The position numbers and the translations under genes were made by a program. Below are positions 7,652 through 51,400 of a DNA stretch of 64,000 bases, piece after piece. Each line of letters opens with the position of its first letter. The stretch's first letter is position 1. Below the pieces are notes generated by a model. It ran no database searches and was not told where the DNA came from. It saw only the letters and a program-made list of their open reading frames with translations. Origin of the DNA: Owenia fusiformis (Eukaryota; Annelida; Polychaeta; Sabellida; Oweniidae); NCBI GenBank assembly GCA_903813345.2, contig CAIIXF020000009.1:12270030-12334029 (forward strand). Direction: 5' to 3'.

Positions 7652-10600
7652 TGTTATTTGAATTTGGAATCTTCATTTCATAATAAATATACTGACCTTT
7701 AAATCGGAGTGTGAATGTAATATATATATATCTTTATAAGGTTGAAATCATAAGATATTGCACAGTCATTAATCGACTTATTTACAATACATAAATTATG
7801 TACAATTGTACATAAATATTTACATTTTTATATACGAGCTACCTAATGGTGTCAATATATTGCAACTCTTAGAGAAAGATGAAATTTGGATGAAATCATC
7901 CCAGTCAATTTTTATGATATAATTCTTTGAAGGAATCTTTTGATTTTAACTGTTCATAACCAAGGAGGATGGCTCCCAGAGTGCAACATCGATATTCTGT
8001 CCTATATATGGGCATGTCGTGATACAAAATTTGAATTAGAACAGCCGCCATTTTGTTCACTTCAACATTTGAATCGTGAATTTTGGTCTTGTTTCCTAAC
8101 GAAAAACTCAAAACTCACAAGAAATGATCGAGACGTTTCGACGTTTTCATTGTTGAAAAATATCCAGTTTCGATCCTGGGAGCCAATCCTTGCTCCATAA
8201 CATAGTTTGAAGAAAAATAACACACTGATTGTGACCCAGAAGTTTCTGCATTTCTAAAATGTTATGAATGTGTTTCATAGGTACTTTCCACACAACAGAG
8301 TAGTTAAAAGTTGTTCTGCTCAATCATACTGTCCGCAGTATTCAATTTTATATCAATACTTTGTTAACTAAAACAGATCATAGCAAACAAACCAAATATT
8401 GCATTCTACATCCAGTTAATACATATTTTAGTCAATTTAAAGGTGCAACAATTAGTGCAGAGGGGCCATTCAACGATCATTGACCAGTGTCAAAATATAT
8501 TTAAGTTTGAATATTTCATCAAGACTTACATCTATTTTTATTATCTACCCCCTAGATAAACATTATTTCAGCTGATATTCCTCTCGAAACATGGTGGATC
8601 TTAAAAATATAAAAGTGGATTCCCCTTTTTGAAGCTTTGAAGCTGAAATTGATACTTTATCCATACATTTTAAGAAAAAAGATATGTCAAACAAGTTGTT
8701 AAGCAAAATGTTGCCTTGATAGCTAAGAAAAAGTTAAAAATTTCCTATTATCTGGGGGGAAGGACCTGGCCAAAAAGGTCATTACTGGGCCTTTTGGTCA
8801 TTACTGGGCCTTTTAAGGCCTTATTTCTTAATTTCAGGCCAAAATTTGAAGAAAACGGGCCCCAAAATTTCAAAATTTGGGCCCACTTGTGGGTTTTAGG
8901 GGCCCAAAAGTGTTTTTTTCTCTCACCTGAAATTTGCCCCCCTCCTTGTTGGTTCCCAAATCCGACCCTGGGCCTTGTTGCCCCTTTAAGACGCAGGAAT
9001 CATTGAAAGTTATTTTATTTTGCACAATTGTTCACAATAAATTTCACAATTTAGCTTTTTGCTTTTCAAAAGCAATGGTCTAAATTATTAAATTATTATA
9101 AAGGATGGTTCTGATCCAAGAAACATGGAAATAAATTGTTCGTTTTATATCAACAAAATTTTACACAAACACACATCTAACATTTCACATACACATAATT
9201 TTACACACATTTATAACATAGGTTACCCATCCAATTTTTACAAAAGATACACAATTCAACTCATAATAATATTTCATTTTTGGGATCTTCAAACTGGAAA
9301 AAGATGATAACTGTTAGATAAGAAGGCGTTCACACAACTTAACAAAAGTAATTAACAATTTAACATGCATAGAAATCAAAAAATCAAAATGCACTGATCA
9401 TGACCACGGCACGACTTATTCGGCAAATCATCGGCAAATTGTAGGCTGATTTTAACTATGGCTGAAAATTTTTTAGAATGACCTACCAATTGTCTGACAG
9501 ATTTTTTGAACGAAAGGTGAACCCCAATCATGACATATTAAAGACAACATTAAAAATGAACTGCTAACCTATGGACTACACTGTTACTAAAGGGACGTTT
9601 ATATCTTATGCATTCAGTCTGAGGCAGAACCCACAAGCTGACAAGTCAAGGTGGGCCATTCATTTTAGTTAGGAACAAATACTCGATCAGGCATAGAAAC
9701 TTAAATATTAAAAATTAATAACCCGATAGGACACCTCGACATGGTTGAAAAACTTTTGGTGTTACGGATCACGTCTTCGTGACATTATAAATAATTATCT
9801 ATGTGGCCCGACAACTCTCGCTTGATTGAGCGCATTATTTTGTTTTTGCGCAAACTGCCCAACTGATACATGGCCAGTAAACTTGACTACATTGGACTAT
9901 TTTACATTGGATATGTTTTTACATAAATCTCAACTGAACATAATAGAGTTATAAAAGCATACTAATTACAATGATATCTAAAAGCAAATGACTGCAAATT
10001 TATAACTAAAAATAACTATTTGCATCAAAGAAATTATATAATGTTTCACTGACTCGTAAATTGGTGAAAGTAAAAGGGCTGAATTGAAGATCCACTTACA
10101 TTATACATTCTCCAAGTAATTCTTTCAGTGCAACTGTGCCTACTGTCTTGCAGGTGTGATGTTTAATTTGGAGCTAGTTTATTAAAGCAACACTAAATGT
10201 TGTCAAATGTAATTAAAAAAAATTTTTTTTTAAATTGATTTAAACTCTTTATATCAATGCAATTAAATGAAATTTTCCCCAGCTCTGAGCGATTCCGAGA
10301 ATAAATTTAGAATCTGGAGAGATGTAGGCAGGATTGCACTGAAAAAAGTGCTATGGAGATATGCCATTTATAAAAACATATATGACGTGTAAAATATGTG
10401 TTAAAGGTCAAGAGTAAGAATAATATTGGGTAACAAAAATAAGTCCAAGAGACAGAACCTCTTAATATTGATACTTTCTGTATAACTATAAGAGACGCGG
10501 CCCCTTTAAATTGATAAGTTCTGAATAAATGTAGAGCCCCAATAAATTGATAACCTTGTTATACCAAACACCAGTCAATTTCATATTATAACAAGAAGTC

Positions 10601-10980: not shown

Positions 10981-11090
10981 CTAACGATACAGCTTATTCA
11001 GAGCTTCACAAGATGGAGTCCCCATTTTTTGCGCCTTTTCATATGATTTAGCATCATTCCAACTGCGAGCTCGCCACATTTGGTTCTCTT
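10981..11090 (-). CDS. DNAJB12/14-like gene: alternative terminal exon B (distal)
   Basis: The acceptor is TGCCATTCCAG|AAGAGAAC and the exon ends with TAG at 10981-10983. It has the same entry phase and the same first bases (AAGAGAAC against AAGAAAAC) as exon A, so either joins the 11856-12019 exon in frame. It encodes 35 residues including AQKMGTPSC, the stretch typical of vertebrate DNAJB12 tails. It therefore looks like the more conserved of the two tails. Confidence 0.8.
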
Positions 11091-14000
11091 CTGGAATGGC
11101 AGATAAATCCAAATTTAGAATTGTCTCAATAAATATAACGTTACATTATGTCACTAGTTGGGATTTGAGAGAAGCATCCCTTTTTGAAGATGTCATTTGC
11201 CTGCTTAAAATATTTATATTAAGTTTCAGGGAAAACATCTTCCTCTTCTAACAATCCTAGCTTGGGAAATAAATAACTGTTAAAGCAACATAAATCACGA
11301 CTGCCGAGGTTCATGGGTAAATCCTCCTTTGGTAATGGATCACTGAGGTTCAAACTTTGCATGTAGGCTATATATTAGGCATTATATTATGTCTGTCTAG
11401 CATAAAGTTTGTCCAAATTGTCACATGATGGCAATTTTGTATTCTGTGCTCTTTCCCATAAGTTCCTATCACTCCAAGCTTTCGCTTGCCATAACATGTT
11501 TTCTTCTGTAAAAAAAAAAGATGGGGAAATACAAAATATCATACAAGCAAGCAAAAATATCTTCATTTTGTAGAAATAGCAGTTTAGCAAATATAGGTAA
11601 AATAAAAAATTTAAATAAGCACAGGCAAATCTTAAGTTGAAGAGGATTGTTATATTACAAAGTTTTTCTATCCTGTCAAAATGATGAAATATGGCATATA
11701 TTCACAAAAATAGTTAAAATTAGGATTTTGAATCTTGTAAAATAATGAATGTCACAGAAAATATCACTTTAGTTAGAATGACAGATATTGATAGTACTAC
11801 AGGTTGTGCCACACTAGTGCTCACTTTACTATTCTAAAAGCAACATTGAACTTACTATATGTTCTTTCCCTATAGCAGTTAGACCGTAAACCTCCTATAT
11901 ATTCATCTTCTACTTGGCGTTCTATACTCCGTATATTCCCGCTATAATGTGTGCTAAAGTCTGGCTTTACGAAATATGCAATTCCCAGATTCTGTGTTTT
12001 TCTTTCATTCATATATTTACTGAAAAATATATTACATATTGTTAAAATGCTGCAGTTGGAAACAACTGAAAGGAATCTCAGAATTATATGATTATATTGT
12101 TACAAAATGTTTTCCTATCAAGACAAATCTAGTGACATTTAATGCATAAAAAATTCATCAATGCAATTTTCTTGTTTGAGATTTAAAGTAAAACCTGTGC
12201 ATAGTAAAACACCTATTGAGCCACAAAAATGTGTTCGCTGTAAGTAGATGTTCACTACAGAGAGGTAAATTCATGCAGAACTCAGCAGAGTATGTGTGGA
12301 AGAAGGGTGTCCACTAGAGAGAGGTGTCCCTCAGACACGTTTTACTGTAATCAATTTCTAAACTTAACCTTCTAAGTGATTCATTTATTAGTGTTCATTG
12401 TCACAGACTTTATTAAAAAATTTTGTTTTAAACGTTTCGAATGCAAACTGCATCCATGATCACTAAATTTAAATTGAAAATAGTTGAAATGAATACAGGT
12501 AAATCTACTATTACATCATTAAACCTTAACAACGTCAAAAAATAATTAATTGCTAAGGCAATATAACTTCATCCCACAAGCGATCTAGATTGAAGTTGCC
12601 CATGTCTCTATTGAAGTTTTTATGCAATATTTCGCACCGTGTGGAAGATAGGATTTTTGCGTGTATTTAATTTCACGCTACCAATACGCGAAATAGGCGT
12701 AATTAAACCCACCCTGTAATTAAAGACATAAACAGTATGTGTGTGTCACATGTTGAATAAGAATCTAGAAAATTCCTCTGTTTTTAAGCCCATTTCAGAG
12801 ACTGGGAGTGAACAAGATAAATCCATATTGTATTCCTACTTACTTAGACCTCTGTAGTGAGAATACTTGATCTCCAACCAGGAAACTACTAAGAAGTGAA
12901 AGACCGACAAGTAACAACAGTGGAGTTAGCTGCAGACACATTGTGTAACCATTCTAAAACAAAAATTAATGATGATAAAAATACATTTGCAGCATTTTCA
13001 TTACCAGCAGATGAAAGGCAATTTTATATGATTTACCAAAACTACTTTTTAAGAATTTTTTCAAAGTTGTCATTGTCATATATATTCTAATCATAATATT
13101 CAGACTTTGCATACTACATGTATCTAAATGTGTTAATTGAAATTAACAGTTATTATTATTTATTTGATACGCAAATGCCGACCAATGAAACAGAATGGAG
13201 GGAATGAAAAAATAACATTTCCCGACTTCTTGAAAGTAATTAACAAAAAATGAAGTTAATTAATGTGCACTCTTACATCTTCCCTATTAGTATAATGTGT
13301 GCTGCGTGTAAAATGATGAGTTCTTGTTCGGTGTTGATGTCTCTGGCCTACGTCACCTGCAAGCAAAAGAATTATATCAAATATTGTTGGATGTATAACA
13401 TATGCAGGCCCATCCAAAGGATTTCCCAGGAGGAAGGCCGACTTTTGCGTATTGATGGGCTGAAATTTAGACCCTCTCCAGTACATTCTGGGCATATCTG
13501 GGAGCCATGTTTGCATCGTTTTATACAAATCTACAAAGATTTTCTTTGGGAAAAAGGGGTCCCCAAATGTCATTTCCCCCCCTTCAGATGGGCTTGCATA
13601 TGCAATTTTCAGTAAAATCGTATACAGATTTTTTCACAGCAAAAGTAGAGATGCTCTCAGGTTATTGCGAAAGGGTTCTGAGTTTAGCTACCCAAGCTGT
13701 ACATGCCACTACACAGCATGTAGTATCAGTTGATTGGCCACAGGCTAGCCTTGCCCAAGTCGGTCTCTTTTACTTATCTTGATCTGGTCAATCAGCTTGA
13801 AGTCAGACGTCATGTCGTCCACGCGATCTGTCAATCAATAAGGTTTCGCGATACCCCTGATAGCGTAGGTATTATGGAAATCTCTAAACCGTTGGATATC
13901 TCAGTATAATATCAGCGGAGATGTATTGGATTGTACAAGGCGGTAATAATTCAAGATCAGATTTGTAAAAAAGAATACCGACTTGGGCAAGGCTGTCCAC

Positions 14001-17000
14001 AGGCTTGCACCCATTTTTAATACTCTTTCGCACCCAATGGGACCGAGAAAAATCATGAAGTTTTGAATTCTGACAAACTTTGAACAAAATTGTTTACCAA
14101 ACATACTCATATGCACATGCACATTTGGATGATATCTTTCCTTAACCTAATAGAAGCTTTAACCCTTTTTCCAGTATCACAGATTCAAAGCTTTGGTATT
14201 TTGAGAAAAGTTTATAATTCTGTACCTAAATATCTTAAAAAGCTAGAATTTATAAGTTCATTATGGCTTAGATTGCAGTTTATGTCACCTTTTCTATTAA
14301 AGATTCTATCTACAGTAATGTAATGTAAAAGGTTTGAACATAAAACACATTTTACTATCAAATAACTAATAACTGCAATTAGTAGACTAGTAAAATGTTG
14401 AACAATCAATTAGCCAATCAATCAATCAACCAATAAATCAACCAATCAACAACATGTTTGGTCACTTTGTCAAATACACAAACGATCTCTATATGTACAT
14501 GTATTAGTTTCGACATACATAGTTGAACACCTTAAATTTAATCACATTTTGATTTGTTTTATTAAACATTATTAACTGCTATAGACTAATACAAACTCAA
14601 CTAGCAGGACAAAGCATATAATTTTGGGACCTTCACATTAATAAAAACAACTTTTCAGGCCAAGACAATCTGTATAAAAGCTGACATGGAGAACACTAAA
14701 TGCTTTTTCCTTAGCTTACTATAATCATAAGCCCCAGACCTTTTCTGTTTTCTTCTTCGATAAACATGAATATTTTCTGTAAAAATGAAATAACCGTGAG
14801 GACACTTGCATCATAATACCGTGTGATCAAATTTTTGATTTCTCACCAATATATATCTGTATATTATAATTACTATATTCAACAATACACTTCTTCAAAT
14901 TGTTAAGTATTTCTATCATCCCAATTTTCTATTTCTGTAAAGTGCAGACAAATTTGCAGATCTTGAATTTTTGATGAAATATCATGGAATTGACAAATTT
15001 GTTAAAATTACGATGAATAATATTAGGGATAAGGTAGGTTGAAAAAATCTGATTTGGGTCAAATTCGATTCAGGCCAGCAAGATGATTGTTTGGGTTGAA
15101 ACTAAGGTACTCAATTCTCAAAAGGAGTTGAGAACAGAAATCTCATAGTTTTTACAAACAACTCACCTGTAGGAAAACCACCTCCGAAAAACATGTTGAA
15201 AATCTCTTCTGCTGAGATGTCTCCTGAAACATACAATTTCTCATACTAAATTCTTGAACAAATGACAAGTTGGGATACACACAGGTGCATATAGCAAAGC
15301 CTCTATTACATTTCATTTATTTTATGATAATTTCAATCGCAACATATTATTATCTGATTCTGAAACATGATAAATGTTACAAACTCATATACATATATTT
15401 TCAAAAATTGGTATCTCAACAAGAAAAGATTTCTCTAAAACTAGGATTTCTCTGAACTAGGTGCTAAAAGCAATGGTGTAAAGAACCAATATGCAGTTTT
15501 CATGTCGAAAAACTTCACAAATGGACACTTGGGAGATTCCAGAGGCTAAAATAGACTTACCACCTCAGTAAAGAAACTTACCTTCGAATCCCCTGTTAAA
15601 ATCATACTCATGATGGTGATGACTGTGACCCTCAACTCTTTCAGCGTCACTTCCATACAGATCGTAGCGCCGCCTTTTATCTTTGTCATTCAGGACAGCG
15701 AATGCATTTCCTATGGCTAGAAAACATTAAAAAGTTTGATGGATATATTTTCTCAATAAACCAGTGCACCAAATGCCATCCACCACCTACCAAACACCAT
15801 CTACAAAAAAGTTGCAGACTATAATAACTATTTACCGCCTCACCACTTGTGGTAGTGACATATCAAAGCAATATCAGACCTTTGTGACAAACCAAGCCAT
15901 CTATATCCCCCTTAAAACCAAGATATCATTAAAAATGGACATTTACTTTAAATCATATTTTAGTGATCTAAAGGATCTTAAAATTGAACACTAAGAATTT
16001 AAAGTTCTCTAAAAAATACTGGATCGATACTGTGAACAAACAATCATCATTGAAGGAAGATCTTACCTTTAAATGCTTCTGTAGCTCCCGGGGCCTTATT
16101 TTTATCAGGATGCATTTTCAGTGCAAGTTTTCTGTAAGCCTTTTTAAGGTCCTCTTCTGAACAGTCTTTATCCACACCTAGAATCTCATAGTAGTCTTTG
16201 CACTTTCTTATCCTTAAAAACAATGAGAACTATATTTTCAACACTTTCTTATCCTGAATCTGTATGTTTTGTCCCAGAACTAAAGCCAGCAGATGGTGAT
16301 GTTCAACCACCCATGAAGCAAAATTTACTTCCTGTAAACACAACTTCACCTGTTAGAATTATCTTGAGAGTAACAATGAACTTGAGGATGTGTGCAAATG
16401 GGCAGAGGACTAATTATAACAGGTCTGTCATGAAGTAAATATGAAAAGGCACAATTTAAAGTATAACAACTCACATTTAGTATTTAGCAATCAATGTAAT
16501 AGACGGATAGATGCAGTGTTTAAAGTTTCTCATTTGGGCAATCAGTGATGTCCTATTATAAGTGCTTGTCTTTCGCAGCTTGGACGTATCTTCAGACCAA
16601 CTTTGGACCCATTATTTCTGATATATATATATTTCAAGAAAATCAGCAGAACAACCAACTGTCTGAATTGAACGCATTGAGCATTCCCCATCAAAGGGAA
16701 TTCCCATCACTTGATACTAGTGTCGTCATGTGACTTGAACCCAGGTAGCCAATCAGATTCAGAGTGGAATCTTAAATTCTGTTCCAATATCTGCGATTCA
16801 GTTGATGATTCTTCTGTGTACCATCATAATTTGACAAAGTAAACATAGGAATTGGTAATTGAAAATAGGCATGTAGAATTATCAATGAGCCTGTTTAACA
16901 TCTCCTAATGCAAAAAATTCAAGGGAATACTCTAATTCTGTTCCTATCAGACACTGCCGCTTTAATAAAGATCCATAAGAATTTGCTATTTGGAACTTAC

Positions 17001-20000
17001 CTTTTAACCATATCTAATTGAGCAGAGGTGTAATCCTTATTTAAAGTGTGACCGCTAGATTCCTGATTTGTAGAAGTTTGTGAAGTCTTTTGCTGATTCC
17101 TATGTCTGGGGCCATCTGTATTGTCTTTATGTTTGTCCTTATTTGCTGTACTACTATTTGCAGTGTTGTTAAGTTGCTCAAGTAAATCTGAAAGGAGACA
17201 ATATGTTTTTGTTTAATGCCTCAACCTCTGCCTCGTTACTAGGGATGGGACGGTTAGTTTCGGTTCGGTTCGGTTTTTCGGATCATCAGCCGTCGGTTCG
17301 GTTTTTTCGGTTCGGTTCATTTATTTGTATTGATTGACATGATTAGCTGCTTTGTCTCTGACTTCACTGCTGACTGTCACTTTCTTTTAATACAACCAAT
17401 AAAATAACTAATTTATGCTTGTAGAAACCTTTATTCTGTGAATTTATGCTTGTAGAAACCTTTATTCTGTGATGCGTTTTTTACAGAGGAAGTCATGATT
17501 GTGTAAGTTTAGTGAGTTTACCACATGATTGATTACCGAGGGATACGAATACGCGGATACGAAATGAATCTAGTAAACGAGTGAGCTAGCAACAGACAAG
17601 ACAGACAAGGTAGGGACTAGGAATATCAAAAATGTTGCTGTAAAACAGTGTTTTTAACTGTTTTATTGATACTTGACCAATGAAATATTAATCTGAAAAC
17701 GATTCGAAAAGCTGATCCGAAAGTAGGGCCGTGATCCGAAAACCGATCCGAAGGCTATGAACCGCGGTTTTTCGGTATTTCGGTTATCCGTCCCACCCCT
17801 ACTCGTTACTGTCATTTACATGTACTTGGACATCATCTTCATCGAAACTTTTATTAACCATCATGGGGGAAAGACTAATTTTAGAAAGGAATTGAAGCGT
17901 GACATTTTTCTACAAGATATCTTTTTTTCATAAACTTTATGAACTTAAAAGATGCTTTAATCTCAGACAATACCGAAACAATCAAAGTTCCACGGGGAGT
18001 TTGTTAGAAACCAGTTTTGATCTAAGAAGTTAATGAAAATGGGAAAGGCATTCTATAGTTCTGAAAGTTCTTCTTTGAACCACTTAACAGCACTTTAATG
18101 CATGATTTCCATATTATAATTTGCTTTCGCTAATGCGCTACATGTATTTATGAACAGAATTACAGAATCGTAGCCAGCAAATATCAAGGTGGTGTGATTT
18201 TTTTTACATTAAATATGGTGCATTTCAAACTATAATTTATTAATATTTTCTCAACAAATTTTACAAAGTTGTCTGTGTGTGTGTGGGGGGGGTGCTACGC
18301 CATGGCTATGCCCATGGAATTAGATATTCATCCCATCTCCATGTATCTCTCCAGGATTTGAGTTGATATCCACATCTACATTGGAACGTTTTTTATTTCC
18401 CTACTCTTATAAGAGGCTTAGTTTTCCCAATAAAGTAATGTGACATGTGACAGACCCATTGGTATTTATCGGAGGACCTAGATGCAAATTATGCAACATC
18501 ACACTTGTGAAATGTCCCGCCTCAGTCACAATATAACTTCTCCACCTCTTTCACCAATCTTCGATGGCGTCTTGAGCAATTCTGGGAAATCAGTGACGTC
18601 ACTGGAATTGGACGGCAATTTCAACTACAGATTTCTTCGGATTTGGGGATTATAGCTTTGTAATATATCTTAAGGTCTTCGACATTGAAAAAGCTACTTT
18701 TTTTGTGATTTTGAATCATAGAAAGCATTCTGAAGTTTCTCGGAGAATCTTTCCCATAATTTCAATATTACTACATGTGGTTTTACGGGCGAAAAAGATA
18801 AGGGCATGTTGTATATAGGACTGGGCAAGACGAAAATAAATATTCTTAATAGATGACACCCCTTTCAAAATAAGATGAACCAAACCGTGTCATGTGACCG
18901 ATTTCTTAAAAGAAATTACGTCAGAAAAACAAAAGCTCCGTAGAAAATTTTCGCTTGAAATGCTGAAAAGCAAGCCGAGTTTTCTATGGGAATATACCGT
19001 TATCAATAGTTAGGTGTACAATATTACCGAGTTTGATGGTGCATAAGTTAAGTGGCGGATCATTTAGTAAGTACGACAATGTGAATTCATGCGACTGTTA
19101 CTTTTTGGAAGTTTTTTTGCAAAAAAGTCGAGTATTTTTTTAAATGTCGAAGAGCTTAATTACATATATACCTATCGTTTGTGTACCATACATGAGAGCT
19201 CTTCAAATCGGAGGTAACTAAACTGAACTAAATTAAACGTTATCGCGAATTGGTATATTGAAAGCCCATGGATGCTGTCACGCACCAAATTTAAACCCGT
19301 TGGACAGCCATGTAATATATTGAGAAACGCCAATACACAGTTTCAGAGCTAAACTTGGAACAAGGACAAGAAAGTCAACACCGTAGGTGAAGGCATAACT
19401 TGTGGCAGAAAGTGGAAACCTCAAGATTCGATCAGAGTGGCAGAAGAGAGACTGCGACACAAGGACATAGTTGGCGTTGTGTGCAAGGGCCGTTTGGGTC
19501 TTGGTCACTATGGTCCTCAAGCAATCACCCCTAAGGAGAAAAGGAGCCAGATTGTCCAGGAGGTGAGGAGATCAACAGAAGAAGATAGGCACATAAAAGC
19601 TGTAGGGCAGGCCAAACAAGGAAGATGGACCAACTGGGAGGCAGCTCTACAGAGACCTCTTACTTGGAAAGAGCTTTGGACCCAGGATCAGGGTCGCCTC
19701 AGCTTTCTTCTGCGCGCATTCACTGACCTCTTACCAACGCCAGCCAATTTGAGAGTATGGGGTAAAGAAGATTCTGACAAGTGTGCACTTTGCAAGGGAG
19801 ACTGCTGCAACCTGCGACACATCCTCAGCTCTTGCCCCCAATCCCTGAGTGAAGGAAGATTCACATGGAGACATAACAAGGTACTCCAAGAAGTCTCTAA
19901 GTACATAGACCAGCAAAGAGGCATTGCCAATAGAGGTTCCATCACTCAACGGCAAAAGCAAATAGAATTTATCAGGGAAGGAAAACCCAAAGCTGCAAAG

Positions 20001-22830
20001 ACCCCCAAACCACAACCCAAGCCAAGCATTTTAGCCAAAGCAACAGATTGGCAACTCCAGGTAGATCTCTATCAGAAACTAGTCTTCCCACAGAATGTGG
20101 CCGTAACAACCCTGCGCCCAGACATGGTTATGACTTCCAGTTCAACCAAGACCATTATCATCATCGAACTAACAGTCCCATGGGAGGATAGGCTAGAGGT
20201 TTCACACGAGATCAAAGCAACAAAGTATCAAGACCTTAAAGACGAAGCTGAGACAAGAGGGTGGCACGCATCCGTCTTCCCTATCGAAGTTGGTTGCAGG
20301 GGGTTTCCAGCAACATCAGTCAGAACCCTATTATCCAAGATAGGATTGCAACCCAAGGAGCTCAAGAGTGCCTTAAAGTCTATCAGCTCAGCAGCAGAAG
20401 ACAGCTCCAGATGGCTGTGGATCAGAAGAAGAGATAAGTGGAACCCAAAGGCGACCCAGTCCACCTAAGTCCCACTAGAACAATGCTTGTTTATGTGGTC
20501 TACCACCAGACCACAGGTGTTCCATATGATAGCTCATATGGACGGGGAGTATACAGCAGGAGGCGCTTACTCGGCCGAACCCGACCTCACACCGATATTC
20601 AAGCATGTCCTAGTCCCCCCTTTGGCATGCCATTCCCATTCCTCAGTCCAATATGTCATGTAGCGAAGCATCATGGATGTTTAACAAATGGAAGATGATC
20701 AAAACCAGAAGAGTAGCATTTATTCGAGTCCTAACATTTAGTAACATGCGAGTGGCTGGGTGGTGTTAGAGTAGATTTCATGGCCTGACTTCGTCGGTAG
20801 AACTTGAAAAATAAGATTTACCTGAAGATTAGGAGTCTTACTTACCCTCTAGAGGTTAGAACACACATTTTAATGAAACTCTACCACATTTGTTGCGTCA
20901 ACTATAGAGCATTTAGCACAATATCCAAGAGGTAAATTATGGATCGTGAAAATGAATGATTTCCTAGTAAGTCCCGGAAGTTTCAATACGATAAATTACC
21001 GAACATTTGTGAAAATTGAATCTTTATTCGTTGATTTTATAATTTACACGTGCGTGTATTCGTCTACACTTTGGTCTAAATTATGAAGCATCACAAACAG
21101 GTCCTAGAATATTTAATAGACCAATACAGCTGACGACCCATTCATACTTTCCGCGCAGCATTTCATTCAGACCAATAGTTCAACTGTAGATCATGCACTT
21201 TTTCTATCTTAGAACAGGCCATCCTCCTCTGCCCTGTCCTAAACTCGTCTGCAGAAGAGACCATAAAACATTATTTTCAAATATTTTAATTATTTTTACA
21301 TCAGTCATGGTTGGATGATATGTCACAAAATTAAAGTTCAAGGTCAATACAGTATTTCTTGATAGAGGCAAAGCCGTCCCGGAAGTAAACACGACGAAAA
21401 TGGAAAAGTCCAAAAAGCATTAACACAAATTTCAATCAAGTACTGTATGCTTCATCATGAACAAAACATAGCTGATATGGTTTCATTAAAATGTGTGTTT
21501 TAACCTCTAGAGGGAAAGTAAGACTCCTAATCTTCAGATTAATCTTATTTTTCAAGTTCTACCGACGAAGTCAGCCCATGAAATCTACTCTACTACTTTT
21601 TTCAAGGCCTGACTGCGTCGCTAACATGCTAAATATAAGAGTTAGCTGACGTTTGGGAGTCTGACTTACCTTCTAAAGGTTAGAACCCGAATCTTAATGA
21701 AACCATATCACCTTTGTTCCGTCAACCATGGAGCATTTGCCACAACATCCAAGAGGTAAATCATGGATCGAGAAAATGAATGATTTCCTTGTAAGTTCCG
21801 GAAGTTTCAATACGAAAAATTCCCGAACATATGTGAAAACCGAATATTTGTTCGTTGTTTTCACGATTTACAGGTTCGTTTGTTCTTCAATGTTTTGGTC
21901 TAAATTATAAAGCATCACCAACAGGTCTTACTCTATTAATCGACTAATACAGCAGACGGCTCATATTTCTACGTAGCATTTCATTCAGACCAATAGTGGG
22001 AGTGTAGATCACGCAGTTTCGTTCGTTGCGTACTTCACTTGAAATTGGTAATTTTAAATATTGACTACTTCACTTGCTTGGCGGATGTAGAACATTGCTT
22101 AATATTCTTTTAATTTTCACACCAGACATGCTTGGTTGACACGTCAACAAAGTAAAGTTCAAGGGTCAATGCGTTATTTCGTGATAACTACAACGGAAGT
22201 CAACATTGATGAAAAATTAAAAAGTCGGAAAAGCATTTACGCTAATTTCTATCAAATGCTATGTTTATGCATCATCATCGACGCAACAAAGGTGATATGG
22301 TTTCATTAAGATTCGGGTTCTAACCTTTAGAAGGTAAGTCAGACTCCCAAACGTCAGCTAACTCTTATATTTAGCATGTTAGCGACGCAGTCAGGCCTTG
22401 CAAAAAGTAGTAGTGGGTGGGGAGGTTTTTAATTATGTTTACATCAGACATGGTTGGAGACATGGTTGGTCGAGTAGAGGCACGTTCATCCTTTCATCAT
22501 CAACAGACCAACGACGTGTTTGCTTCCTTATGTGAACTTTAGTATAGAAGACTATAAGAATAAACCTTACTCATGTTTAGCAACAATTCTAATGCTGAAT
22601 CATCAAAGCAAAAAATTCGATTTTTTCAGAAATTATTTCTAAAATCCTAAAGATATATTTGGCGATCTAAAGACTATTTTACAAAAATTAGACCCACCTT
22701 TCGCTTTAGGCAGAGGATATAGTTTTAGAGCTTTATTTAAAAATTTAACAGCCTTGTTCCGATCCCCTCCCATGATATATTTGATGGCTATTTCCAGACA
22801 TCTCTCACTTTCATCCTTGTTGCCCTCCAT
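10981..22830 (-). CDS. DNAJB14: DNAJB12/DNAJB14-like ER-membrane J-domain co-chaperone (10 coding exons, alternative last exon)
   Basis: Coding exons in transcript order: 22698-22830, 17001-17187, 16067-16212, 15582-15716, 15167-15223, 14720-14776, 13277-13356, 12844-12953, 11856-12019, then 11387-11505 or 10981-11090. All have GT-AG borders and phases that join exactly, giving 395 or 392 aa. The N-terminus ([15 protein letters not shown]) matches the family's TPR-like leader. The J domain spans about residues 112-175 with the HPD at 141-143. An MFFGGGF segment follows near 211, then a His/Arg-rich linker, one hydrophobic helix at about 273-290, and a C-terminal DUF1977 region (YFVKPDF, about 317). 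Family knowledge: such proteins sit in the ER membrane with the J domain in the cytosol and recruit Hsc70 for degradation of misfolded membrane proteins. B12 versus B14 cannot be decided; length and domain order suit both. Intron 1 is over 5 kb and filled with transposons. Confidence 0.95.
11387..11505 (-). CDS. DNAJB12/14-like gene: alternative terminal exon A (proximal)
   Basis: The acceptor is TTTTTTACAG|AAGAAAAC and the exon runs to a TAA at 11387-11389. Splicing from the donor at 11856/11855 completes an AAA codon (A|AA). It supplies 38 residues after the split Lys, starting [10 protein letters not shown] and carrying a PSC motif and a LYARQT end. The intronic pyrimidine tract is strong. 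No canonical AATAAA was seen between this exon and exon B, only a TATAAA-type variant near 11216. Against exon B, 16 of 35 aligned residues are identical. Confidence 0.8.
12184..12349. mobile_element. Mariner/pogo-like MITE in a DNAJB intron
   Basis: The ends TAAAGTAAAACCTGT and ACACGTTTTACTGTA form an imperfect terminal inverted repeat. The inside has repeated GTGTCCACTAGAGAGAGG-like text. It is related to the 7469-7651 element by its ends. There is no coding potential. Confidence 0.6.
13667..14032. repeat. Long imperfect inverted repeat (fold-back/MITE) in a DNAJB intron
   Basis: GCCTTGCCCAAGTCGGT at about 13751 is mirrored by ACCGACTTGGGCAAGGC at about 13978, with CCACAGGCT on the outer side of both arms. 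The outermost TGCGAAAGGG is mirrored by CTCTTTCGCA. The arms are about 100 bp with indels. No gene lies inside; short open frames crossing it are by-products. Confidence 0.65.
14390..14455. repeat. AATC-rich simple repeat
   Basis: A run of CAATCAATC and CCAATCAAC words in a DNAJB intron. It is a degenerate tetranucleotide microsatellite. Confidence 0.7.
16525..16770. repeat. Dispersed intronic repeat, copy 1
   Basis: This segment shares an ordered set of words with 39495-39725: GATGTCCTATT, CAGAACAACCAA, GAATTGAAC/GAATTAAAC, GGGAATTCCC/GGGAATCCCC, CTTGAACCCAGG and CCAATCAG. The spacing is similar and the orientation the same. A short dispersed element (SINE or MITE) is likely. No pol III boxes were identified, so the class is left open. 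Confidence 0.55.
17240..17801. mobile_element. Non-autonomous hAT element with 8-bp target duplication
   Basis: Perfect 8-bp direct repeats CTCGTTAC (17232-17239 and 17802-17809) flank a 562-bp element. Its ends TAGGGATGGGACGG and CCGTCCCACCCCTA are inverted. Subterminal regions are rich in TTCGGTTCGG on the left and CCGATCCGAAA on the right. A 27-bp direct duplication containing CTTGTAGAAACCTTTATTC lies at 17417-17471. No transposase frame is present. It sits in DNAJB intron 1. Confidence 0.9.
19353..20468 (+). pseudogene. 3' fragment of a non-LTR retrotransposon ORF (zinc knuckle plus endonuclease-like C-terminus)
   Basis: An open frame of about 370 codons has no ATG at its left end and ends at TAA 20466-20468. 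It carries the order seen downstream of reverse transcriptases in many invertebrate elements: a GRKWK...RLRHKD segment, then W-rich blocks, then a CCHC-type knuckle ([18 protein letters not shown]). Next come RHNKVL and a region with [12 protein letters not shown] and a KYQDL, which resembles the PD-E-K core of restriction-like endonucleases. No reverse transcriptase domain remains upstream, so it is a truncated copy. It lies in DNAJB intron 1 on the opposite strand and is visibly richer in GC than its surroundings. Exact clade is uncertain, and the nuclease assignment rests on motif spacing only. Confidence 0.75.
20767..21594. mobile_element. Terminal-inverted-repeat element, copy 1 of an adjacent pair
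   Basis: The left arm (20767-20890) contains TCCTAATCTTCAGG-type text in reverse, CCTCTAGAGG and CCGAAGTCAGG-like ends. Its mirror occupies 21480-21594. Arms are about 110-120 bp. Interior blocks (GATTTCCTAGTAAGTCCCGG, GACCAATA) recur in the neighbouring copy at 21590-22414. There is no coding frame. Confidence 0.8.
21590..22414. mobile_element. Terminal-inverted-repeat element, copy 2 of an adjacent pair
   Basis: The left arm starts with CTACTTTTTTCAAGGCCTGA and includes GACTGCGTCGCTAACATG. The right arm is its mirror, ending CAGGCCTTGCAAAAAGTAG. Arms are about 130 bp and include TCTAAAGGTTAGAACCCG. It is related to copy 1 in arms and interior but clearly diverged, so the two are not a recent duplication. 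It sits in DNAJB intron 1. Confidence 0.8.
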
Positions 22831-35640: not shown

Positions 35641-35766
35641 CCACAAATACTAAGAAATAGTAAATAGAATTATACACTTTTGAATTTTGAACACACGGCT
35701 GTTGAGATTGATTAACACAAGACATCTTGAATTTACATTTTCAATTCATGGTATTGACGTTGAATC

Positions 35767-38700
35767 ATGTTTCAGTTTGTTCTCCTAGGATTTGTATCAA
35801 TTTACTTTCTTTATCTGATCATACGCTATATAACCAAACCAAGAACCAACGCACCAGGACCAAAGGGATGGCCATTACTAGGAAATGCCTTAGAATTCGA
35901 CATAGAAAATTTGCCCGTGCAGATGGCAAAATGGGTAAATAGATATGGGGATGTCTTTAAAATAAACCTTTTTGGAGAGGATATCGTCGTCATCAGTGGG
36001 GAGTTATGCTATGAAGCTCTTGTTAAACGTGGTGACGATTTTGCAGGACGACCAATCCGTAATCGCGGTGATTGGGTGACAGAAATGGGTGAAGATATAG
36101 CATTTGCTGATACGAGCCCAGAGCAGAAAAAACGAAGGAAGATTGCTCACAGTGGTTTAAAGCAGTACGGAACTGGAATGGCTCATCTGGAAGAAGTAAA
36201 CGCCAAAGAGATCAAAGATTTCTTGAAAATAGTGGCGGACAAGAAATGCTCTCCATTCGATCCCCGTGCCGACATTTACAAGTGCGTCATCAAGATCATT
36301 ACTTTATTGGTAAGGTGCTCATATTGTTAAGGTGAAGGTTTGAGACAAATATTATGTCGTGCCACCATTCTCAGTTCTGAGATGACTATGAACACGCGTA
36401 GTTAACATGCCTGCATGTGATCATTCTGATACTCATAGCATCTTTCTGTTTCATCTGAAACCTCAGGGTTGAGAAGAAATGAGATGTCATTGTTTATCAT
36501 GATGGCATGTGAAACACAACACTATTTTTGCAATATTTAAAATCAGAGTTGACTTCCTCCTCTTTATTGAGCTACCCTAGATACGCTAGGCCAACCAGAT
36601 AGGGTCATACATTTTCTGTGAATTCAAAGCTGTTTATGTTGATCATAAAGACTTTTTGAAAACCAGTATTAACCAGACATATTGTATAACCTTGTCCTTG
36701 TCCTTTCAATATGTTTTGGATTTAAAACGTTACGCTTCCCGTATAAACACAATGTGCACGAATCAACTGGATCAGTCCATTTTTAAGAAATAAGGGGAGT
36801 ATTGTAAATTCCATTTCATTGACATCGTCTTGGAGATAAAATAATGTGTTTATAATGATTCTGTAAACATTGAGAGAGTGAATTATTAATTTTACTTTAT
36901 AGCTTTTTGGAGAGGCTTTGACGAAGGAAGATGACATTAAGACAATTGCAGAGTTGGATGAAACTATCGTCAGAGTCATTGGAACAGGGCAAGGATTTGA
37001 GCTTGATCATTTCCCTTGGCTTCGGTTCTTTGGGAACAGCACATACGAAATCATAAAGCATTTCAACACCGTTCGAACTAGATTATTTGATAGGTGGCTC
37101 CTGGGCTCAAAGGTATGCCCAAGTTCAGGCAAAATACCAACAGAAACATTTCAAAATTAGGATACATCAGAATTTGGTTTCCCTATAATAGGAACTATAA
37201 GGATGCTATACATGAAATTAGATTAACTTGTAGCATATTAGGAGCTTACGTATTTGATTACAATTTCAATTCAATTATGTCTATGTTTCGTAATTATGTA
37301 GGATACGATGGAGAAGGGAAAGATTCGGGGTATGGTCGACTGGTTACTTGTATCGCAGGAGAACGAACCCACCATCTCCGATACCAATGTTCGCATGATG
37401 ATCCAGAATATTCTTTTAGCAGGTAACCTACATGTGCGAATTAGAGAACTGATATCATGACATTTCACGGTAGTTTATATTATATTTTCATTTTGCCTTA
37501 TGCCTGGGTCACATTTGCTTGAGTATTTTGTTCAAAATTGAATACATTTCTGAACAAAATAGTCAATCGGCCGGGCGCCGTAGTGAAAATCGGGGCAAAT
37601 GTGACCAAGGCATTAGCGGCATATTTATGCCGTGGTCACATTTGTTCCGATTTTTACTACGGAGCCTGGCCGATTGAGTATTTTGTTCAAAATTGTATGA
37701 TCGTTACAGTTTTTTGCTAAAATGTTGAAAAATTAAGAATTTTTTTGTCCAAAAAATTGATCGGTCGGCGCGACTTTTCTACCTACTATTATTTTCAATG
37801 CGAGATTTAATTTAATTTATTCTACAGATCTACCTCGCACCAAATATCATAAACATATGCAGGAATATGACTGTGTACGAGCCGTTCAACTTTTCATGTA
37901 TACACTGATTTTTTTCTTGAGAATGCCGTCACAGAATATAGTTCCGCGGAAGACCACTTTTTTAATAATCACCGCTTTTGTGCCTTCAGCCTCCTAGCTG
38001 ATCGGCAGGGCGCCGGTGCTAAAAATCGGAGCAAATGTGACCACGGCATTACTTTTTGACGTTTCATCTAGCATGTTCGCTTGACTTTCTCAAACTGCTT
38101 GAAGTTGTATCCCTCCAGGCTCCAATACGTACACTACTTACGACGAGCTGGACGTACTACGGACGGAACTGTCGTACTTCAATCCAACTAAGAACGTTTT
38201 TACAACGAGTTGAAGTGTCTGAGGACGTATTGAGAACGAGGTAGAACTAATTGCAAACGGGTTAAAACTGATTAAGAACGTATTTATCAACGAGTTAGCA
38301 AAAATATAGCAATCATACCAAGCAAGTTGCCACTGCGTTCTTCAAAATTGGTTACCCCCCTATCACACCAAACTAGTTCTTACCCGTTCTTGCCAGTCTT
38401 ACAAAAACGTCTTAAAACGGGCTCAATCTGGCTGTGGTCGGGAAATATATCTAAAATAATTAGCTACTTCCTTCATAAACAGTCTTCAATACGTCCATCT
38501 CATTCGCAGTTCGTTCAGGTCGCACCACGTTAGTGTGCAACGTCGTATAACGCGTCCCTTAGTCTAGAAGGTCATCATGACCTGATTACAGAACGGTATC
38601 GTCGCCATCGAATTTTGAATCGATTCAAAATTGTAAATCACATTCCCCGTCCGAGAAAGTCCATGAAGTTCGTAGAACGTTGTAGCTACGTTCATTCCGT

Positions 38701-41700: not shown

Positions 41701-44700
41701 GGTCAATGTTTTGTGTTCAACCTTGTTTTCATGACTTTTAAACATGAGTCGACGATTATGTAGGAAATTTCATTTTCAAATGTAAGCGTGTCAACTCCTT
41801 TTTTTGCACAATATTTAGCCCTTTATAATGATAGATCGCCAAAATATGCATGAACCTCTCAATTAGGCGATAAATTTTTCAATTGTAGATGTAAACTATA
41901 AACTCAAACAAAAATTCAAATCACCCGCTCTATTATTTTGATTACACAAGACGAAATTTCCACTCCCGGGGAGCACTTTGGTATCACTTTGAAGGAGGAT
42001 TTTTGAAAAATCGTTCGAATTTTCACAAAAGGTTTCACGTAATTTTATTGCTTTGTTTAAGCCTCGACTTATATTATACTCAAATCCGATACCATAATTA
42101 TGAATCAAAATGAAACATTCAATTCACCAAGTTAGATAATAAACCGTTTCGAGAATTGATGATTTGAGTTAATTGTGGATATTTATATAAATGTAAGTTG
42201 GCATGTATTCGACAGTTAATGTACACACGTGATGTATGCATCAACGTGTGACTTAAATATCAATTTGTGACTATCACATTTGGCTTCCAAAAATTAAGTT
42301 GGAAATTACAGTGGTAGGAGATTAACGAAAACGTCAGTCACATCCAAATATCCGTACGACGTCAAGTATTAACAAAACACTTTTCGTGCATCTCGAACAT
42401 GGCAAGGTTCTGTTATCCAGCAATGTGCATTTCGAAAGAAAAAATTCACAAATATCAACAAATTTCATTGAGTAGGATATTACATTTGAAATCACAACTT
42501 TCAAATTATTTTTTTTAACCAAGAATTGTAAGAACTTGAAACATGTTGTGAGTTTTTCAAACGGCATATCCTCATTCACGTTCGTTGACAAGGATGAATC
42601 CATTTGAAAACATGGATTTTCTTGATTATTCTTCAAAACTACCCTTGAAATATAAGTATGTAGGATATTACAGTGTAAATTGACACGCATTTGTTTGCTC
42701 GATATCCTGAACAAATAAATGCAGTACCGTCTTGCAATATTTGAAAACCGAAAGTTCATTCTGTATGTAAACAAGAAAAAATACATTTATGGTTGGTTCA
42801 TAATGAAAAATGACGAATAACATATATCTTTTGAAGTAGGGGTATACAGGGACACAGTGGAAAATCAGAAATTTAGGTCATATCCCAAAGATTGCTTCAC
42901 CAATATGTAACAGAACATCAAAATTATCATTTACACGTTTGCTCATAGGTTTATTGAAAATAATTAACCAGAGGTTTACTTCAGTTGTGGCACCATTCTT
43001 AGTAAATATTCATGAACATACGAATATCGAATGTTGACTAAGTTACTTGTCTTGACCGTCTGGTCAGTTTGGCGATCTTGAGTAAGTTTGACGTCACAAA
43101 CTTGGAAAAAGTCACAACGGTGTTTTTGGTATATGCTATGTTCTGTATGTAATACTTTGTGTAAAAATTAATCAATTGTCTTAAACTCTCCGGATAGTGT
43201 GTATTATATGCCCTAAAGTATGCATGAAAAGTTTCATTAAGTTTACTTGCCATTTACAAAAGTTATTTGAGGTTTACCTTAGTAGGAAAATACTTTTGAT
43301 ACAGAGGGTATAAATATATCTAAAATCTAGACCAAATCGTTCTTTTAAACGATGACAACTGTCCACGTATTAGTTCTTGTGACTAAATACGCTAAAAGAA
43401 AAGCATATGAATCAGTTAATTTGAAAGGTGCGGTCATGGACCTGCGCTCAATGGTACAGAGGTTGCCGCGTTGCGGAACTTTATTGCTAAGAGATTGTTC
43501 GCCATGTGCTTGAGTTGTGGATGTGTTTTCCATAATAGGCATTTTGTGCATGTACAGTGATTTTTTAACAGTTGGATCTACGTTATACGTTTAGCGCACA
43601 TATTTTTACAACTGCAAATTAATTATTCAAATTTTAGGTTTCCCACATTGGATGATAGAAGCAACCTCCCGTACGTCGATGCATTCATACTAGAGACCCT
43701 GCGCTACACATCGGTTGGCCCTTTTACTTTACGCAAATCTACAAAGGATTCTAAACTAGGGAATTATTTCATTCCAAAGGATACACAGGTACAACTCAAG
43801 GGTGAACAAGCTATCAATGCTACCTGCAACACTGCTACAAAAAGCTTCGTTGGGGTCCAACCTTCATTTAATTTTCTACTCAATTGCTTCGTTATCAATT
43901 TTTTCCTAATGGAGGCATAAAACAGTGGTACGAAATTGTAATAGTAACATTTATATGCACAAGTGCCGAAGCGAAAATACTGAAATGTGGTAAAAACAGT
44001 AAGAAAATGAAACATCTGATAGGACAACAAGATATAATTAAAAAGCCTCACATATCCAAAAGATGACCTTTAACAAGAAACATTGTGGCATGTGAGGGGT
44101 TTTGAATTGTAGCCTCACTTAATGCAACGAATGTGTGATAGGTCTATATGAAACACTTTTCTTAAACTAAAAAAGAATACTATAGTATTTGGCACAAACC
44201 CAGGATGAATTCCTCATCCTAGCACAAACGATTTTGAGCTCCATCACGCACAACTTAAGGTTATCACACTCCCTATTTAGGTTTGGGTGAATATGTTTGG
44301 ACTTCACCACGATGAGCGCTACTTTGCTGATCCATGGACATTTAAACCAGAACGTTTCCTTGACCAGAACGGTGATGTTATTCCAGTCGATCAAAGAAAG
44401 ATGTAAGATATTACGCAAGTTTAGAATTGTAGTTTTGATTTTTAAGTCGTACCACTTCTAATAAGCAACCATGCCATAACTTTGTCAACTTTAATAATAT
44501 TTAATTATAGGCTGATGCCATTTGGAGCAGGAAGACGTGTTTGTGTCGGTGAACAGTTGGCGAGGGCACGATTATTTCTCTTCTTTACTGCGATGTTGCA
44601 GAAGTTTACCTTTCTTCCGCATGAGGGCGATAAATGCCCATCATGTGACCCTAGGGGATATACGACTGGACTTTTGTTACGACCAAATAATTATAGAGTT

Positions 44701-48426: not shown

Positions 48427-51400
48427 CTTTAAACTGCCAAATCAGAGACTCATTGAATGGGGAAAGGACATCAGTTTTTGCATCGTATTTTCCAACGCCC
48501 CTAATAGTGACACCATCACCTGAAAACAACCAAAGCAATAATTCTCATAATAATGGATGGGACTTCAAGACCAAGTAATTTGATAAGATTGATGTCTCAA
48601 AATTCTTCGACGTTCTGCCTTCGAACTAACCTCTCATTGTTCCAACGTTGACGTAATAGTTACGCAATCCATTTGCATTGTAAGTATAGGGTCCCTGTAT
48701 GTTGTTCGTGAAGGATAAATAGAAAGTAAGAATCTTTTTAGCATTAATCATCATTTGATCAGATACACAGCATAGTTTTATAATGTTTGATAATCCATAC
48801 ATTTAAACCACATGCTACCAATGGATAGACATTTAATTCCGAATAAAAATGGATAAGTGTTTTAAAGACATCATTTATTGTGTAACAGTGCTTTAAACCA
48901 GACACTTTCACAGCATAATCAATGGATCTAACGAGTTTTCATTTCGAATAATACTTTTTAATCGCAGTCGTATCTGTCCAAATGCACTCATGTGAGAATA
49001 TGTTTTGCGTTGTTTGGATTCTGGTTCACAAGAAAAAGCCACTCTATGTTACAAATGAAATAAAAAATATCAAACCCAAATTGTTCTAATTAAATGATGT
49101 GTTATTTTGGGAATTAAATTGTCTATCAAATGGGAGCATAAATGAAAGTATCAAAAAGGCACTTCGGATTTAAGTGTTCTTATTTTAGTATAATACAGTC
49201 TTACACGCGATGTTGCATGTAGTATGGAAGCATAAAATGGGCACTTCTGAAATAAGTGTCCTTATTTTTGTGTGGTTACAGTCAACGTCAAGTGAATGTA
49301 TTCAAACTGTTTAAATAATTGTACTGGTAAACAAAGTTGTAACACTACCGTGACTCCATCAAAGTCAACCTTCATTAGATTAGCATACAGTTTCTCTATC
49401 CCGTCCATGGTTCTGAGAAAAGCATTTGCTTCTCCGGGAACTACTCCCTCTTCTTGAAACGTCGCTTTCAGTGCCAAGGCAAACGCCCACACGGCGTCAT
49501 AAGCTCCACCTTGTTAATTAAAAACCTTTTTACTTGATTTTGACAGAATTAAATACCAGTGCATTTTCGTTTTACTTGTTTGCGTTTTTGATACCCTTTT
49601 GGCAATATTAATTAATACAATTTCATACATACCTTCGTTTCTACACATATTATTAGAAATTATTAGACTATGAAGTTGCAAGTCATTTTTGCTAAACATA
49701 TTCTCAAACATAAGGCCAGAATCTTTTCATGTATGTTTCAAATGTTGAGTAAACAAAGCCAGTGAGCTAATTGTGAGCTTATTATTCCTTTAACCCTCAG
49801 TGCCTAAGCCCCTTCTACTATTATAATCCTGGATAAAAAGCCCGAAAGTACAATTGAGCGAGCATAGTTTTATATTCTGCATCAGGATGAAGATACACAT
49901 ACTAATACATACCTGCGAAAACAAATGGCTTTTTGGGTGGTACCTCTTCTCCAATATCAGATAATATATCGACGTATGACTGCAATGGAACGATATTAAT
50001 TGGATATCACACAAATTCTCCCTTATTGTAATAGAATGTGTGGCAATTCGATAAGCGAGACGATGTCCAGAATAATATTTTACAAACAAATATTGACACA
50101 ATTTACAAAAGTTATAACAGAGATCTTTCTTTTGAAGGAATTGAGATACTAATTGAAGATCAATGCACGTTTTCTATTTCTAAAATAGTTCCTGCTGTTT
50201 TGCCATCCAAACAAAGCGACATTGTATTTTCTAAAGCCGATATTATATTTTCAAATAACCAAATTGTAAATGATGTCTTGGCTTATAGTACTTTCCCAAT
50301 TATATACTGTTCAGGTTTTGAAAGATTAAAAAAGAAAACATATATTTTACAAATAAACAAACTAATGCCTCTGGGAATAATTACTTTGCCACTTCTATAA
50401 TGTTTAGGTTCGGTCAGGTTAACGTTGCCACCCTCAAAGTAGTTTTCAGGTAACAGTGTAAGTTGGAGGGCTCCCTCCCTCGCTTCATCAATCTGTTCCC
50501 TTGTACAGTTGGCATTAGCCATTTGATCTTCGGTAAAGTAATTAAGCGTAGGGTTTGACTTATGCATTAGTATATACTTCTCTCCTGTGAGGTTGTATTT
50601 GTACAGCTAAAAACAAAAACAACTACTATATTTGACATTTGTAACTATGAAATGTAAAATTAAATGGACTATTCTCAGTGCAGACCTTTTATAAAACTTT
50701 CATATTGCATATATTTCATAGCAAAGTTATTTGATAAGACAGACAGATGAGAGAGAAACCGAATTGTTGCCGTTGCGCAATTGTGATCTTAGAAATTCAC
50801 ATCATCGATCGAACAAATTGTGACGTTTTAGAAAGATTTAAATCATTATTCCAAACATAACGTTCCGGTGTATTAAATTTTGAAAATATGTTAGATCACA
50901 TTACACACCTGTTCAGAAAATAGCATCACTGAAAAGCGCATAAAATACCTCAAAATTGCATATAAAGCACATGTTAAGAAGTTGTCAAGAAGTTTTATCA
51001 CTAAAACATGTTTACTTTTATAGCCTTCATCAAGAAGTTTTATCGCTAAAACATGTTCACTTGTATAGCCTTGATCAAGAAGTTTTATCACAAAAACATG
51101 TTTACTTGTATAGCCTTGATCAAGAAGTTTTATCACGAAAACATGTTCACTTGTATAGCCTTGATCAAGAAGTTTTATCACAAAAACATGTTTACTTGTA
51201 TGTCCTTGATCAAGAAGTTTTATCACGAAAACATGTTCACTTGTATAGCCTTATTATCAAAGAGTTTTATCACTAAAACATGTTAACTTGTATAGCCTCG
51301 ATCAAGAAGTTTTATCACTAAAACATGTTAACTTGTATTGCCTTGATCAAGAAGTATCTTGCAATACGTTTACGGGACAACCATTTTTTGCTTAATAATA

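Follow-up and report, generated by a model that had tools for sequence, protein, structure and literature searches.

The human co-chaperones DNAJB12 and DNAJB14 have the same domain order as the gene described here, with a single membrane span and, at the C-terminus, a DUF1977, listed in Pfam as a domain of unknown function. Short isoforms of both human proteins have been described, lacking the J domain, in some cases together with the membrane and DUF parts (PMC8792056; PMC10939069). The role of DUF1977 is unsettled in view of the deletion results reported for the two proteins: the DUF part of DNAJB14 supports DNAJB12 binding and DJANGOS formation, its removal making the binding around 3-fold weaker (PMC8792056), whereas nuclear DJANGOS structures still form with a DNAJB12 from which almost the whole luminal domain is missing (PMC3986390), so that the luminal tail appears dispensable for some activity. 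In a meeting report, the luminal part of DNAJB12 is referred to as a putative calcium-binding domain (PMC10939069), and both proteins are reportedly lost under reductive ER stress (PMC12370619). Gene structures with homologous alternative last exons have been described before; human capping protein beta is one case cited, and on the Drosophila X chromosome such features are shared by 14 of 101 alternative terminal exons, counting first and last exons together (PMC3228551).

In the window, i.e. the whole stretch of 64,000 nucleotides of Owenia fusiformis DNA that was analysed, the minus strand carries a gene for an ER-membrane Hsp70 co-chaperone of the DNAJB12/14 type. Rebuilt from the sequence, it has 10 coding exons, beginning with the ATG at 22830, with GT-AG borders and consistent phase. 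Nine of these, from the ATG to the donor at 11856, are common to two predicted forms that differ in the tenth (10A or 10B, encoding tails A and B), and the joined frame is open to either stop, giving 395 amino acids with exon 10A and 392 with exon 10B.

22698–22830, minus strand: coding exon 1, N-terminal region (MEGNKDE...), with the ATG and donor GTGGGT; sequence-based gene model
17001–17187, minus strand: coding exon 2, linker; a single splice pair, from the AG/GT trial given below
16067–16212, minus strand: coding exon 3, J domain; Pfam DnaJ over exons 3–4, best PDB match DNAJB12 (2ctp)
15582–15716, minus strand: coding exon 4, end of the J domain; splice sites and phase
15167–15223, minus strand: coding exon 5; splice sites and phase
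14720–14776, minus strand: coding exon 6; splice sites and phase
13277–13356, minus strand: coding exon 7; splice sites and phase
12844–12953, minus strand: coding exon 8, transmembrane segment; hydropathy maximum at residues 274–292
11856–12019, minus strand: coding exon 9, most of the luminal DUF1977, Cys350; Pfam DUF1977 at E 1.3e-11 in the genome search
11387–11505, minus strand: terminal exon 10A, last third of DUF1977, Cys384, stop TAA; acceptor with 18 of 20 pyrimidines
10981–11090, minus strand: terminal exon 10B, last third of DUF1977, Cys384, stop TAG; acceptor with 14 of 20 pyrimidines
10178–10183, minus strand: AATAAA, candidate 3' end common to both isoforms; hexamer scan, with ATTAAA at 10167

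Exon 1 has a single match in the whole genome at E ≤ 10, at its own locus, and for exon 2 only one of the pairs tried between AG (17260–17150) and GT (17080–16980) dinucleotides keeps the full frame open. Exons 6 and 9 both end in TATA/gtaag, with A as the last exon base, where G is usual. The Pfam DnaJ profile scores about 91 bits over exons 3–4, the HPD motif is present in the translation, and the best PDB match to the protein is the J domain of DNAJB12; the luminal part matches no PDB chain at E ≤ 1. The only strong hydrophobic stretch lies between the DnaJ and DUF1977 domains, the latter being above the Pfam cut-off with either tail. This arrangement is consistent with a cytosolic J domain, one membrane span and a DUF1977 facing the ER lumen.

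Intron 1 of this gene contains, on the opposite (plus) strand, an open frame of 371 residues (19353–20465) with a zf-RVT match of 22.3 bits, below the cut-off of 27.5, which probably represents a LINE-type retroelement fragment. Elsewhere in the window, exons of at least one cytochrome P450 gene lie on the plus strand at 35764–36327 (Pfam p450, 62.9 bits, profile positions 2–155) and 43561–43917 (56.4 bits, positions 310–365), the first of them some 13 kb from the start codon of the J-protein gene, which runs in the other direction. An open frame of tandem 15-residue repeats of the GYTSEHVFVIKLLDQ type (50894–51250, minus strand), where the other strand is open too (50944–51273), is probably not a gene but a simple DNA repeat, and neither tRNAs nor Rfam families were detected within the window.

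The two terminal exons are homologous, lie in tandem and in equal phase, and each has its own acceptor and stop. The acceptor of exon 10A reads tttacag/AAGAAAAC at 11505 and that of exon 10B attccag/AAGAGAAC at 11090; the donor common to both tails is CATATA/gtaagt at 11856, and the Lys codon split at this donor is completed by 10A as well as by 10B. The coordinates, stops, phase and shared Lys codon proposed for these exons in the initial annotation proved right to the base on recheck, as did the identity of 16 in 35 residues between the tails. At the nucleotide level, 60 out of 105 positions are identical. We tried to find a third tail exon and recovered only A and B, both by tblastn over 23500–8000 (next E 0.99 among the best 14 matches, all with tail A) and with a two-sequence profile run on all reading frames of the window (next best E 0.11); elsewhere in the genome there was none at E ≤ 10.

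As the exons are short, one may ask whether their likeness is due to chance. Queried against the whole genome, exon 9 joined to tail A gave three matches, namely exon 9, 10A and 10B (E 1.2e-4), with no further match at E ≤ 10, and tail B gave two, itself and exon 10A (E 2.5e-5). These reciprocal matches, with none outside the gene, place the identity above chance. Moreover, the DUF1977 score is 56.1 bits without a tail (profile positions 12–74) and rises to 91.3 bits for the full protein with tail A and 94.1 with tail B, either tail moving the end of the match from profile position 74 out to 108. Since 45 of the 105 bases differ, the pair is not an assembly duplicate either, and we regard chance or an assembly error as an extremely improbable source of the likeness.

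Outside the window gene, the genome gave no match to DUF1977, exon 1 or either tail. A profile search for a second DUF1977 in the whole genome, in which three candidates were scored, retrieved this gene as its one match. Eleven places in the genome carry a J domain; the second-best of them, the only other one inspected as a possible paralogue, was set aside as an ordinary protein by its appearance, which we take, from reading its sequence and not from a database match, to be DNAJB1/4-like. A single DNAJB12/14-type gene is therefore likely rather than proven, since the genome search tool may miss weak matches.

Several observations indicate an ancient tandem duplication of the last coding exon, after which both copies were retained as protein-coding sequence. 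The flanking introns have no recognisable likeness, as blastn aligned the exons only (other matches had E ≥ 0.95, barring the overlap of the two compared pieces), which points to an old duplication. Identity between the tails falls from 24 to 21 to 15 of 35 at codon positions 1, 2 and 3, respectively, as expected under protein constraint. The estimates of dN (0.50) and dS (approximately 2.0) give a dN/dS of around 0.25, a rough value, since dS is near saturation.

We also simulated neutral drift of exon B. In 5000 copies taken to the A/B divergence, a mean of 9.4 residues was kept and 0.1% of copies kept at least 16; none of the 5000 reached 101, the BLOSUM score observed for the tails, and 8.7% remained without a stop. 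The fewer the changes assigned to A, the weaker this neutral test becomes: with 38 changes, 16 residues survive in 4.0% of copies, and none of the 5000 attains the BLOSUM score; with 30 changes (5000 copies), 57.7% keep at least 16 residues and 1.56% reach the score (0.48% while open); with 22 changes, the fractions are 99.8% and 44.7% (11.0% while open). If A alone had been neutral, arithmetic assigns to it about 38 changes, i.e. most of the 30.7 non-synonymous differences plus a synonymous share, and for this reason we regard 22 as too low.

Because pairwise dN/dS cannot tell which of the copies was constrained, we used the Pfam DUF1977 profile as an outside ruler and scored the tails on an identical exon 9 stub. 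The stub scored 85.8 bits with tail A and 88.5 with tail B. With neutral copies of B in place of the tail, it scored 54.9–66.8 bits (18 copies with 45 changes) and 56.0–68.1 bits (10 copies with 30 changes), these two numbers of changes being the ones used in the profile test (n = 28). Tail A thus fits DUF1977 almost as well as tail B and far better than all 28 neutral copies, which argues that both were kept as protein. The proposal of the initial annotation that the duplication was kept in frame and open is backed by the dN/dS, the profile scores and the simulations. Its description of A as the diverged copy holds by a few bits at most, A being not notably farther from DUF1977 than B.

The slightly better score of tail B could be taken to mean that exon A is a relic, recently out of use, and that tail B alone is made. 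The constraint on exon A is historical, and a recent loss of its use would look identical in sequence. Nevertheless, exon A is open, lies in the right phase and carries the family cysteine in register, its acceptor is richer in pyrimidines (18 of 20) than the eight other acceptors listed (10–15 of 20), and its DUF1977 score lies far above those of the neutral copies; we thus consider a relic improbable. Contig sets of prokaryotes and viruses, searched for relatives with the exon pair, contained none, as expected there.

The cysteines offer a further comparison with the human proteins. After the membrane span, each form has just two, Cys350 in exon 9 and Cys384 in exon 10A or 10B, and their spacing is 34 residues in both. 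This is the spacing of the luminal pairs in the human proteins, for which disulfides were predicted by AlphaFold between Cys329 and Cys363 of DNAJB12 and between Cys332 and Cys366 of DNAJB14 (PMC12370619). Either exon thus carries, in exact register, the second half of the predicted redox disulfide of the family. Both forms should close this luminal disulfide, given that each tail provides a potential cysteine partner for Cys350 at the family spacing. The second cysteine was retained in 23% of the neutral simulated copies, and by itself is modest evidence.

We infer that both exons are used, because both copies have long been constrained, and two C-terminal isoforms, which the initial annotation called probable, are the most economical reading of the sequence. 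In the explanation that we favour, and consider rather likely, two acceptors compete for one donor, the disulfide is kept and the 3' end is common. The spliceosome would join the donor at 11856 either to the acceptor at 11505, giving tail A, or to that at 11090, giving tail B. Such a competition between 3' splice sites would swap the last third of DUF1977, i.e. the C-terminal 38 residues in A or 35 in B, leaving the preceding 357, J domain and span included, unchanged. Acceptor A is both nearer to the donor and richer in pyrimidines than acceptor B. The A-form transcript would continue to the common 3' end, with exon B inside its 3' UTR. Nonsense-mediated decay would not be expected, the stop codon lying in the last exon.

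Such a shared 3' end is favoured by two negative results. The stretch from 11505 to 10981 contains no donor of the GTRAG or GTRNGT type (in a scan limited to these GT motifs), which makes onward splicing from A to B unlikely, and neither AATAAA nor ATTAAA occurs from 11855 down to 10184. The one AATAAA that the hexamer scan found after the donor (11855–9300) is at 10183, well past exon B. We therefore consider a shared 3' end most likely, with the poly(A) reading drawn entirely from hexamers; the switch could work without a second poly(A) site.

Variant hexamers are present between the exons (TATAAA at 11218 and AATATA at 11220, 11376 and 11388) and could end the A transcript before B. In a second explanation, both exons are used and A has an early poly(A) site of its own, where cleavage competes with splicing to B. 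The hexamers at 11218 and 11220, around 170 bases past the A stop, would suit such a site, and the homologous 3'-terminal exons of human capping protein beta have multiple poly(A) sites, which the authors expect for homologous terminal exons generally (PMC3228551). Homologous last exons usually have separate poly(A) sites, whereas the pair described here has no canonical signal between its members, and past 11218 the sequence has little G+T (fraction 0.39). We consider an early site credible but rather unlikely.

For the terminal exons of Drosophila, control by base-pairing has been described (PMC9013439). The gene described here lacks support for such pairing: for the three pairs of regions compared, 65%, 40.5% and 23.5% of 200 mononucleotide shuffles formed competing RNA structures that were equally strong.

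If the two acceptors do compete, luminal partners or redox enzymes would meet a different surface and C-terminus on each of the two forms. The DNAJB12/14 type has two genes in human and apparently one in this animal, and it is conceivable, in our view doubtful, that the exon duplication takes the place of the vertebrate gene duplication, with disulfide-closing forms whose luminal domains co-assemble like DNAJB12 and DNAJB14 or that differ in redox stability. If that were true, the composition of a complex for ER quality control would be set by splicing. By exchanging the final third of DUF1977 while retaining its cysteine, the exon pair also shows which positions may vary, and the A and B forms make a clean pair for testing the function of this domain.

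Homologous alternative last exons are already known, and in titles and the beginnings of abstracts in the open-access literature we found none described for the DNAJB12/14 family, in line with the statement of the initial annotation that no described tail switch is known there. The tandem homologous last exons of human capping protein beta and Drosophila pip, one of which is used per transcript (PMC3228551; PMC9013439), are comparable systems. Within the family, the human isoforms described in these reports lose domains (PMC8792056; PMC10939069), whereas the gene of O. fusiformis would swap its luminal tail instead.
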